The position numbers were made by a program, and so were the translations under genes. This document shows positions 13,805 to 26,695 of a stretch of 64,000 nucleotides of DNA, piece after piece. Position 1 is the stretch's first letter. Every line of letters begins with the position of its first letter. The notes beneath the pieces are model-generated. The model was given only the letters and a program-made list of their open reading frames with translations. It searched no databases and was not told the DNA's origin. The DNA comes from Mumia sp. zg.B17 (lineage in GTDB: Bacteria > Actinomycetota > Actinomycetes > Propionibacteriales > Nocardioidaceae). The stretch lies in NCBI RefSeq assembly GCF_019550915.1, contig NZ_JAHWCI010000008.1:62001-126000 (forward strand), given 5' to 3'.

Positions 13805-13877
13805 TGCCCCCGGCTGGATTCGAACCAGCGACACCCGCTTTAGGAGAGCGGTGCTCTATCCCCTGAGCTACGGGGGC
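13805..13877 (-). tRNA. tRNA-Arg (anticodon CCU)
   Basis: A complete cloverleaf on the minus strand, 73 nt. Acceptor GCCCCCG pairs with CGGGGGC, discriminator A; D arm GCTC..GAGC; anticodon stem CCGCT/AGCGG with loop CTCCTAA, giving anticodon CCU (codon AGG); T arm with GGTTCGAATCC. CCA is not encoded. It lies in the 100-base gap between the phosphatase and methyltransferase genes. Confidence 0.97.
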
Positions 13878-24635: not shown

Positions 24636-24664
24636 TTGGCCCGGGCGGGAGCGCGGCGTAATCT
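24636..24664 (+). promoter_or_regulatory. Promoter of an orphan short transcription unit
   Basis: TTGGCC (24636-24641) and TAATCT (24659-24664) are exactly 17 bases apart. This is one of the best vegetative-type promoters in the window, and it points to a stretch with no long gene. Expected start about 24671. Confidence 0.6.
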
Positions 24665-24696
24665 CGTCCGTACACGGGAAGGAGGTGGTCCGAAGA

Positions 24697-24735
24697 ATGA
24701 TTGACTTCAGGACATGTGAGGTGGCTGTCAGCTAG
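24697..24735 (+). CDS. 12-residue micro-ORF with an extended Shine-Dalgarno
   Basis: ATG 24697 to TAG 24733-24735 encodes MIDFRTCEVAVS. AAGGAGGTGGTCC at 24679-24691 matches the complement of the 16S rRNA 3' end over nearly 13 bases, ending five bases before the ATG. No downstream gene on this strand could be attenuated within 800 bases, so a classic leader peptide is not obvious. Supported only by the ribosome site, promoter and terminator. Confidence 0.45.
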   Translation: MIDFRTCEVAVS

Positions 24736-24787
24736 CCACGGTGCCGTGGGAACGCCAGCACCGTGCGGCGAATCCCAGGCAGCCACC

Positions 24788-24841
24788 CGACCCGCGGGGG
24801 CCGAGAGCAAAGTCCGCTCGGCACGCAAACCCCGCGGGTCG
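24788..24841 (+). terminator. Long branched hairpin, likely terminator
   Basis: CGACCCGCGGGG (24788-24799) pairs perfectly with 24830-24841, and inside it GCCGAG (24800-24805) pairs with CTCGGC (24817-24822). A pyrimidine-rich TTCCTGTCTTC follows. It could also stop transcription leaving pdxH on the other strand. Confidence 0.7.
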
Positions 24842-24882
24842 TTCCTGTCTTCACCCTCCTGCGGCCCGGCCCTCTGCCCGGC

Positions 24883-25524
24883 CTACGGCGCGAGGCGCTC
24901 GCGAAGCCATTGCCCACCGACGGCACGGAAGCGGATCCGGTCGTGCATGCGGCCCGAGCGTCCCTGCCAGAACTCGATCGAGTCGATGGACACGCGATAG
25001 CCGCCCCACCACATGGGACGCGCCACGTCGTCGGGGTACGAGACCTCCGCCGCGTCGTACGCCCGCTCGAGGGCGACCCGGTCGGCGACCACCCGCGACT
25101 GGTCGGAGGCGACGGCGCCCAGCTGGGACGCCCGAGGCCGTGAGCTGAAGTAGTCATCGCTCTCGCTGTCAGACACCCGCGTCACCGAGCCCTCGATCCG
25201 GACCTGCCGCTGCAACGGGTGCCACAGCATCACCAACGCCGCGTGCGGGTTGCCCTCGAGGTCGTCGCCCTTGCGCGACTCACGGTTGGTGTAGAAGACC
25301 GCCCCCTCGGCGTCGAAGCCCTTGAGGAGCACGATCCGGACCGACGGCAGCGCACCGGGCGTCGCCGTCGCCAGCGCCATCGCGTTCGGCTCGTGCATCC
25401 CCGAGGCGACCGCCTGGTCGAACCACGTCCCGAAGAGCCACACCGGGTCGTGCCCGGCGTCGGCCTCGCTCAGTCCGGATGCCTCGTACTCCTCGCGCAG
25501 TGCCGCGATCGCGTGGGACTCCAT
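24883..25524 (-). CDS. pdxH: Pyridoxamine 5'-phosphate oxidase
   Basis: 213 residues. The family blocks are complete: MALATATPGALPSVRIVLLKGFDAEGAVFYTNRESRKGDDLEGNPHAALVMLWHPLQRQVRIEGSV (FMN site), then YFSSRPRASQLGAVASDQS and the C-terminal WWGGYRVSIDSIEFWQGRSGRMHDRIRF with the substrate-contacting RxH motif. It oxidises pyridoxine/pyridoxamine 5'-phosphate to PLP. Leaderless: TAGGGT (rc of 25532-25537) ends seven bases before the ATG. Divergent from citrate synthase with a 52-base gap. Confidence 0.96.
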   Translation of the reverse strand: MESHAIAALREEYEASGLSEADAGHDPVWLFGTWFDQAVASGMHEPNAMALATATPGALPSVRIVLLKGFDAEGAVFYTNRESRKGDDLEGNPHAALVMLWHPLQRQVRIEGSVTRVSDSESDDYFSSRPRASQLGAVASDQSRVVADRVALERAYDAAEVSYPDDVARPMWWGGYRVSIDSIEFWQGRSGRMHDRIRFRAVGGQWLRERLAP

Positions 25525-25531
25525 GGACAGC

Positions 25532-25569
25532 ACCCTACGAGACCTGGCGTTGCGCGGGCGGGGCAGAAT
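25532..25569. promoter_or_regulatory. Divergent leaderless promoters for pdxH and citrate synthase
   Basis: TAGGGT on the minus strand (25532-25537) ends 7 bases before the pdxH ATG at 25524. CAGAAT on the plus strand (25564-25569) ends 7 bases before ATG 25577. The two -10 boxes face away from each other with 26 bases between, so each -35 region falls on the other promoter. Confidence 0.55.
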
Positions 25570-25576
25570 GACTGGC

Positions 25577-26695
25577 ATGACTGACGCATCCGAGACGGTG
25601 AAGGTCCACGAGGGCCTCGAAGGCGTCGTCGCCTTCGCCACAGAGATCGCCGAGCCGGACAAGGAAGGCTCCGCGCTGCGCTACCGCGGCGTCGACATCG
25701 AGGACCTCGTGGGGCGAGTGCCCTTCGAGAAGATCTGGGGCCTCCTGGTCGACGGCACGTACGAGCCGGGCCTCCCGCCCGCCGAGCCCTTCCCCATCCC
25801 TGTGCACTCGGGTGACATCCGGGTGGATGTCCAGAGCGCGATCGCACTGACCGCTCCCGCCTGGGGCCTCCGCCAGCTGTACGACATCGATCCTGAGCAG
25901 GCTCGCGACGACCTCGCCCGTACGGCCGTCATGGTGCTGTCGTACGTCGCCCAGGCCGCACGGGGCGTCGGTCAGCCGATGGTCCCGCAGACCGAGATCG
26001 ACAAGGCGAGCACCATCACCGAGCGGTTCCTCACCCGGTGGCGCGGCGAGGCCAACCCCGCTCACGTCAAGGCCATCGACGCCTACTGGGCCTCCGCCGC
26101 CGAGCACGGCATGAACGCCTCCACGTTCACCGCACGCGTGATCGCCTCGACCGGCGCCGACGTCGCTGCCGCGCTGTCGGGTGCCGTCGGCGCGATGTCG
26201 GGTCCGCTGCACGGCGGCGCGCCGTCGCGCGTGCTCGGCATGATCGGTGATGTCGAGAAGTCCGGCGACGCGCGGACCTATGTCAAGGGCCTGCTCGACG
26301 CCGGCGAACGCCTGATGGGGTTCGGCCACCGCGTCTACCGCGCCGAGGACCCGCGCGCCCGTGTCCTGCGCCGGACCGCGCGCGAGCTCAACGCCCCGCG
26401 GTACGCGGTGGCCGAGGCGCTGGAGGACGCCGCGCTCGCCGAGCTGCGCGAGCGCCGCCCGGACCGGGTGCTGGAGACGAACGTCGAGTTCTGGGCAGCG
26501 ATCGTCCTCGACTTCGCCGAGATCCCGCCGCACATGTTCACGTCGATGTTCACGTGCGCTCGCACGGCCGGATGGAGTGCGCACATCCTCGAGCAGAAGC
26601 GCACGGGGCGGCTGATCCGTCCGTCCGCTATCTACACCGGCCCGCCGTCGCGCAAGCCGGAGGACGTCGAGGGCTGGGACCCGGCCTGGGCCTGA
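25577..26695 (+). CDS. citA: Citrate synthase (actinobacterial type 2)
   Basis: 372 residues. Catalytic and substrate histidines are at H177 (EHGMNAS), H212 (LHGG) and H251 (GHRVY). The position of the usual catalytic Asp in NVDF reads NVEFW, so Glu304 replaces it; as far as I recall this is normal for the actinobacterial citrate synthase 2 branch. FAEIPPHMFTSMFTCARTAGWSAHILEQ and RLIRPSAIYTGP close the active site. It condenses acetyl-CoA and oxaloacetate; a methylcitrate synthase activity cannot be excluded, notable because propionyl-CoA genes lie next door. Leaderless start. Confidence 0.92.
   Translation: MTDASETVKVHEGLEGVVAFATEIAEPDKEGSALRYRGVDIEDLVGRVPFEKIWGLLVDGTYEPGLPPAEPFPIPVHSGDIRVDVQSAIALTAPAWGLRQLYDIDPEQARDDLARTAVMVLSYVAQAARGVGQPMVPQTEIDKASTITERFLTRWRGEANPAHVKAIDAYWASAAEHGMNASTFTARVIASTGADVAAALSGAVGAMSGPLHGGAPSRVLGMIGDVEKSGDARTYVKGLLDAGERLMGFGHRVYRAEDPRARVLRRTARELNAPRYAVAEALEDAALAELRERRPDRVLETNVEFWAAIVLDFAEIPPHMFTSMFTCARTAGWSAHILEQKRTGRLIRPSAIYTGPPSRKPEDVEGWDPAWA

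Follow-up and report, generated by a model that had tools for sequence, protein, structure and literature searches.

The locus between an MFS gene and pdxH in the window, the 64,000-nucleotide stretch of Mumia sp. zg.B17 DNA analysed here, holds a promoter, a ribosome site, a 12-codon open reading frame (ORF), competing hairpins and a nested 12+6 bp terminator. It raises the question of what matters in such a unit: the RNA, the peptide or the act of translation. The first-pass annotation had described all five features, and each lies at the position claimed; the observation is real, base-exact and not a product of chance. Pfam agrees on both neighbours, of which pdxH (24883-25662, minus strand; PF01243/PF10590) is convergent and lies outside the RNA. 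The interpretation offered with that description is, as a whole, partly supported, as set out below.

Identity and distribution of the element

Searching the window with cmscan matched positions 24672-24847 of the plus strand to Rfam family RF02471, Ms_IGR-5 (115.7 bits, E 2.2e-25). The score is far over the curated gathering score of 45 bits and the match is complete, spanning model positions 1-184 of 184, so that the element is almost certainly Ms_IGR-5. These results refine the earlier bounds, with the conserved element beginning at 24672 and the Rfam match stopping at 24847. The RNA is single-copy in its own 3.86-Mb genome, and its architecture is common to 91 Actinomycetia homologs. The only other Rfam match within the window is a tRNA gene (13805-13877, minus strand).

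Rfam describes RF02471 as an actinobacterial sRNA first reported from M. smegmatis. Ms_IGR-5 has RNA-seq support in S. lividans (PMC8079986), in S. avermitilis it is catalogued among the sRNA transcription units (PMC8780764), and IGR-5 has been equated with ncMSMEG15794c, with transcription in M. smegmatis (PMC10454040). The M. abscessus and M. smegmatis homologs carry significant ribosome reads, in a study cautioning that many non-coding RNAs not thought to be translated likewise bear ribosome footprints (PMC4974804). These four papers, the Ms_IGR-5 literature covered here, mention neither the ORF nor a function, and a literature search on the peptide letters returned chance word matches only. 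The RNA family is already catalogued, entered in Rfam as an sRNA gene; what our analysis of 129 homologs adds is a reading frame that appears to be selected when its peptide does not.

A sigma-70-type promoter can be read directly at 24636-24664 on the plus strand (-35 TTGGCC at 24636-24641, a 17-nt spacer and -10 TAATCT at 24659-24664), and the predicted transcription start, 24672, falls 7 nt past the -10 box. In every one of the 91 Actinomycetia homologs a TANNNT -10 box sits 6 or 7 nt 5' of where the element begins, compared with 0.03% in the background; this fixed position marks the RNA as a gene transcribed from its own promoter rather than a fragment of some untranslated region. At the other end, the terminator hairpin P4 (24788-24841, plus strand) comprises an outer stem of 12 bp (24788-24799/24830-24841) in which an inner stem of 6 bp is nested (24800-24805/24817-24822), and its loop carries GUCC at 24812-24815.

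Within the class, 249 of 394 sampled genomes and 85 of 137 genera carry Ms_IGR-5, nearly always as one copy. A DNA pattern search recovered it in 231 of the 394, with almost no matches for the reversed control. Sampling the phylum yielded 38 weaker matches outside the class (25-68 bits), whose 5' architecture looked alike on inspection and for which we found no second Rfam family. Our comparative set therefore comprises 129 homologs, 91 from Actinomycetia and 38 from other classes. The first-pass annotation had called the element familiar from other actinobacteria and had staked its reading on conservation in related genera. Both points hold: the family is spread through the phylum, and both the ORF and the stems are conserved far beyond related genera.

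The distribution is also patchy. No match was found in about 145 of the 394 class genomes or in 14 control genomes including Corynebacterium glutamicum, and a lenient Rfam search of 34 match-less genomes returned none over the cut-off, one clear relict (L162, a decayed relative that has no terminator-loop domain) and otherwise unconvincing candidates. In genus g2, from the window's own family, the RNA is missing from most genomes even with a lenient search. Complete genomes of this genus are among those without it (G026, G104, G115, G229, G256 and G343), although it is present in G247; the pattern suggests loss. Absence from many genomes of the class implies that the RNA is dispensable in some lineages.

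An exceptional ribosome site

The extended Shine-Dalgarno sequence GGGAAGGAGGUGGUCC (24676-24691, plus strand) complements the 3' tail of 16S rRNA. The earlier description put the complementarity at nearly 13 bases; against the 16S tail of its own genome, ggatcacctcctttct, it extends to 16 consecutive pairs, wobbles counted, at -29.3 kcal/mol. Of 63,980 window sites scanned, this one paired best; ribosome sites ahead of long ORFs reached -19.8 kcal/mol at most. Across the 3.86-Mb genome the 13-mer AAGGAGGTGRTCC is present at two sites only, this element and the strand complementary to the 16S 3' end. Looser 13-mers (RRGGAGGTGGTCC) occur in a few copies each in other class genomes, at about the frequency of the reversed control, so the uniqueness of AAGGAGGTGRTCC holds for its own genome only. 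The heptamer GAGGUGG is present twice in the RNA, within the Shine-Dalgarno and again in codons 8-10. The second copy lies 6 nt ahead of codon 12 with a computed pairing energy of -11.3 kcal/mol, a spacing that could fit the holding of a terminating ribosome.

A conserved reading frame

Downstream of this site, the 12-codon ORF MIDFRTCEVAVS and its TAG stop occupy 24697-24735 on the plus strand (ATG at 24697, stop at 24733-24735), and the ORF is conserved in the 129 homologs, with a length of 10-17 codons and of 12 in most. The triplet seven codons 5' of an invariant GAG GTG is NTG in 90 of 91 Actinomycetia loci. We compared the homologs with 500 shuffles in which only the loop bases between GGUCC and the GGAC codons were permuted. 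An in-frame canonical start and stop were present in 78 of 81 distinct Actinomycetia loops versus 9.7±2.9 in shuffles (maximum 18 among the 500), a comparison that ignores kinship in a sample covering dozens of families. For the other classes the canonical count was 20 of 34 loops versus 3.3±1.6; counting the near-cognate starts CTG, ATT, ATC, ATA and ACG raised it to 34 of 34 versus 7.9±2.5. Such near-cognate starts occur in 16-18 of the 38 other-class homologs, behind a very strong ribosome site. The loci in which they are apparent are L102, L104, L105, L107, L110, L112, L113, L116, L117, L119, L121, L123-L125 and L127-L129.

Independent of any assumed frame, canonical starts 2-8 nt past GGUCC fell in the ORF frame at 109 of the 129 loci, compared with 10 and 6 for the two alternative frames. 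Stop triplets 15 nt past GAG were present at 125 of 129 loci and interchangeable in kind (TAG 111, TGA 10, TAA 4); the four exceptions are two frame-shifted loci, one with CAG then TAG and one with TGG. From these comparisons we are highly confident that the ORF is under selection.

The encoded amino acids follow a different pattern. Third-position change is not in excess in codons 2-4, where no helix constrains the sequence: entropy at the third position was 1.08 bits versus 1.28 and 1.57 at the first and second in codon 2, 1.45 versus 1.62 and 1.75 in codon 3, and 1.60 versus 1.22 and 1.70 in codon 4. In codons 5 (R/W/G), 7 (R/C/S/G) and 12 (R/S/G) it is the first position that varies, the other bases being fixed, and the other classes carry P, L, S or H in place of R. 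A synonymous form of GAG GTG was never seen among the homologs. L131 and L134 score only ~30 bits but can still be recognised as relatives; each has lost one base ahead of the stop, a loss offset by a start in another frame, so that a TTG..TAG ORF appears to be kept with an unrelated peptide. The relict L162, whose Rfam score has dropped to 30.6 bits, retains a 12-codon ATG..TAG ORF, MVNFRIKEVADR (L162:1500-1600). The shared T-R-E-V-A core is accounted for by codons that RNA helices constrain, and beyond those helices we found no amino-acid conservation of the kind expected of a functional peptide in a dual-function RNA. The peptide is very probably dispensable.

Helices built partly from codons

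The predicted fold is more stable than shuffled sequences (z -3.73, 0 of 200), and folding confirms that competing hairpins exist. The 5' strand of helix P1 (24673-24676, plus strand) pairs with 24715-24718, in ORF codons 7-8. Across the 129 homologs 504 of 516 P1 cells are paired, compared with 36-348 when the partner is slid; pairs 2-4 are Watson-Crick in 126, 128 and 115 homologs versus 75, 91 and 72 in shuffles, and the compensatory types include CACG/CGUG, CACA/UGUG, CCAG/CUGG, CGCG/CGCG, CGUG/CACG and CGGG/CCCG. A nearly invariant GGAC in codons 5-6 (24710-24713, plus strand) has two possible partners: 24688-24691, the GUCC that ends the Shine-Dalgarno and doubles as the 5' strand of helix P2, or the terminator loop at 24812-24815, as a pseudoknot. 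Both need GGAC and are mutually exclusive. Covariation in P2 was not found among the homologs. The GUCC of the terminator loop is invariant. Four other-class homologs combine an ORF CGAYC with a loop GGUCG; on these four sequences, a thin basis, the loop contact is favoured over P2.

Helix P3 joins GGUGGCUGUC (24720-24729, plus strand; codons 8-11, including the second GAGGUGG) to GGCAGCCACC (24778-24787, plus strand), as indicated by alignment and folding, at -20.9 kcal/mol. Pairs 5, 7, 8 and 9 covary, as in GGUGACCAUC/GAUGGUCACC of L027, and at pair 5 G-C is replaced by U-A in L047-L049. Between the stop and the 3' strand of P3, constrained folding places a hairpin region, P3a (approximately 24736-24770, plus strand), that varies in sequence and forms a hairpin nonetheless. 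It is followed by GAAUCC (24770-24775, plus strand), which is predicted to be single-stranded and is conserved phylum-wide in the alignment; a search for its complement in 16S found none that was convincing. Placing a ribosome at the stop during folding abolished P3. Because P1, the GGAC contacts and P3 are all built partly from ORF codons, the folded and translated states exclude one another.

Rfam draws a different 5' helix, between the Shine-Dalgarno and codons 10-11. We rejected it, as two-sided change is absent in the bulk of sequences and the helix is disrupted in the other classes, where its pair 2 is standard in 6 of 38 homologs; P1 and P3, in contrast, covary. The 5' half of the RF02471 consensus structure is apparently incorrect, and P1 and P3 offer a basis for redrawing it.

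Alternative explanations

With a leader ORF, competing hairpins and a terminator, the element looks like an attenuator or leader controlling whatever gene lies downstream. That reading is extremely improbable, and we rejected it on gene order. The window has no same-strand gene before convergent pdxH, and the downstream neighbour changes over loci: pdxH and citrate synthase flank about 22-23 of 129 loci, mycobacteria and their relatives have a convergent THAP4-like heme-binding protein, and ten other-class loci have a convergent DNA ligase that looks LigA-like from its sequence. Upstream genes differ as well, downstream neighbours vary by clade and are mostly convergent, and no same-strand downstream gene is consistent across loci, which implies that the RNA acts on its own. 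The view of the first-pass annotation that this orphan unit is no ordinary attenuator is borne out. We also considered the synteny with pdxH and citrate synthase as a functional link and discarded it at only about one sixth of loci. In one other-class genome, a selenocysteine tRNA (L137:1132-1223, minus strand) adjoins the homolog.

Three readings had been proposed at the outset: a micropeptide gene, a ribosome-sequestering RNA and a dual-function small RNA. A gene for a 12-residue product, M-x-x-x-[RW]-T-[RC]-E-V-A-[AV]-[RS], was our initial preference for its recurring T-R-E-V-A-like core, its conserved ORF and its strong ribosome site. We now disfavour it as improbable. The codons of the core coincide with P1, with P2 or the pseudoknot, and with P3; codon-position entropies show amino acids varying freely where the RNA permits, with GAG GTG lacking synonymous codons and P, L, S or H replacing R in other classes; and two relatives read another frame. 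The ORF is kept and its amino acids are not. The other two readings remain viable. A decoy that lowers translation by tying up free 30S subunits in a 16-bp Shine-Dalgarno duplex would explain why the strongest 16S complement in the window is found here, with a 13-mer unique in the genome bar the 16S complement. Accommodation could be slowed by 16S pairing that stops just 5 nt short of the start codon, many of the starts are weak, and a second Shine-Dalgarno-like GAGGUGG is suitably spaced from codon 12. A decoy, however, would make the reading frame, stop codon and covarying P3 superfluous and would have to be present at thousands of molecules in each cell, and comparable 13-mers recur within other genomes; we consider it unlikely, if worth keeping in view. 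An ordinary antisense sRNA, its ORF a by-product of a ribosome-binding stretch that pairs elsewhere, would suit the sRNA catalogues and could use the loop GUCC and single-stranded GAAUCC as seeds, but it leaves the frame-specific start and interchangeable stop codons unexplained and strikes us as a poor prospect.

A proposed model of ribosome-driven refolding

The reading we prefer, to which we give about an even chance, is that Ms_IGR-5 is an autonomous ribosome-recruiting RNA switched by being translated, in which the existence of the ORF and not the peptide is selected. An ORF preserved without preservation of its peptide indicates that ribosome passage, not the product, is probably what counts. 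We propose that the 5' end folds into P1 and P2, with the Shine-Dalgarno in a bulge that separates the two helices and with the P2 loop containing the start codon, and that the folded RNA could still catch a 30S subunit via the bulge. Initiation and 12 codons of elongation would then melt P2, the pseudoknot, P1 and P3. A ribosome at the stop would mask one strand of P3 and release the other (GAAUCC..GCAGYCACC), and the second GAGGUGG near the stop may help the terminating ribosome keep P3 open. When translation is scarce the RNA would refold, giving two states set by ribosome availability. The freed 3' strand and the terminator-loop GUCC would be the likeliest contact sites for an output, which might involve a partner, either protein or RNA, an effect on RNA stability, or the holding of subunits. 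More tentatively, and with less than even confidence, Ms_IGR-5 could be a free-standing, phylum-wide ribosome-sensing RNA whose ORF exists solely for ribosomes to reset the fold, and which reads out or captures translation capacity.

Actinobacteria form a phylum that includes mycobacteria and antibiotic-producing Streptomyces, and Ms_IGR-5 is among their widely conserved small RNAs. If it is indeed switched by translation, it would be a regulatory RNA that passing ribosomes drive and that lacks any cis-linked gene, and sRNA catalogues would include translated members. Apparent selection on the ORF but not on the peptide turns the question of Ms_IGR-5 function into simple tests.

Comparison with known systems

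In the dual-function sRNAs SgrS and RNAIII, the peptide is functional and conserved. Like dual-function sRNAs, Ms_IGR-5 is a small RNA with a promoter of its own, a short ORF and a structure suggestive of regulation; unlike those of SgrS and RNAIII, its peptide is not conserved. Leader-peptide attenuators and translated upstream ORFs offer another parallel: there, the act of translation alters RNA folding. In Ms_IGR-5, too, translation itself and not the peptide would change the fold (for an upstream ORF case, see PMC13009471). Unlike these systems, it has no downstream gene and finishes at its own terminator. A third comparison is with 6S RNA and Ms1, with which Ms_IGR-5 may share the logic of binding core gene-expression machinery, a likeness drawn here from computed 16S complementarity. 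RNAs of the 6S type act on RNA polymerase, whereas the putative target of Ms_IGR-5 is the ribosome. Lastly, extended Shine-Dalgarno sequences have been described in Staphylococcus aureus on ordinary mRNAs, with two extra pairs in long duplexes near the start codon and with non-canonical starts (PMC13009471). Ms_IGR-5 likewise combines a long duplex with the 16S tail beside the start and non-canonical starts, but its duplex reaches up to 16 pairs and sits on an RNA of 12 codons.
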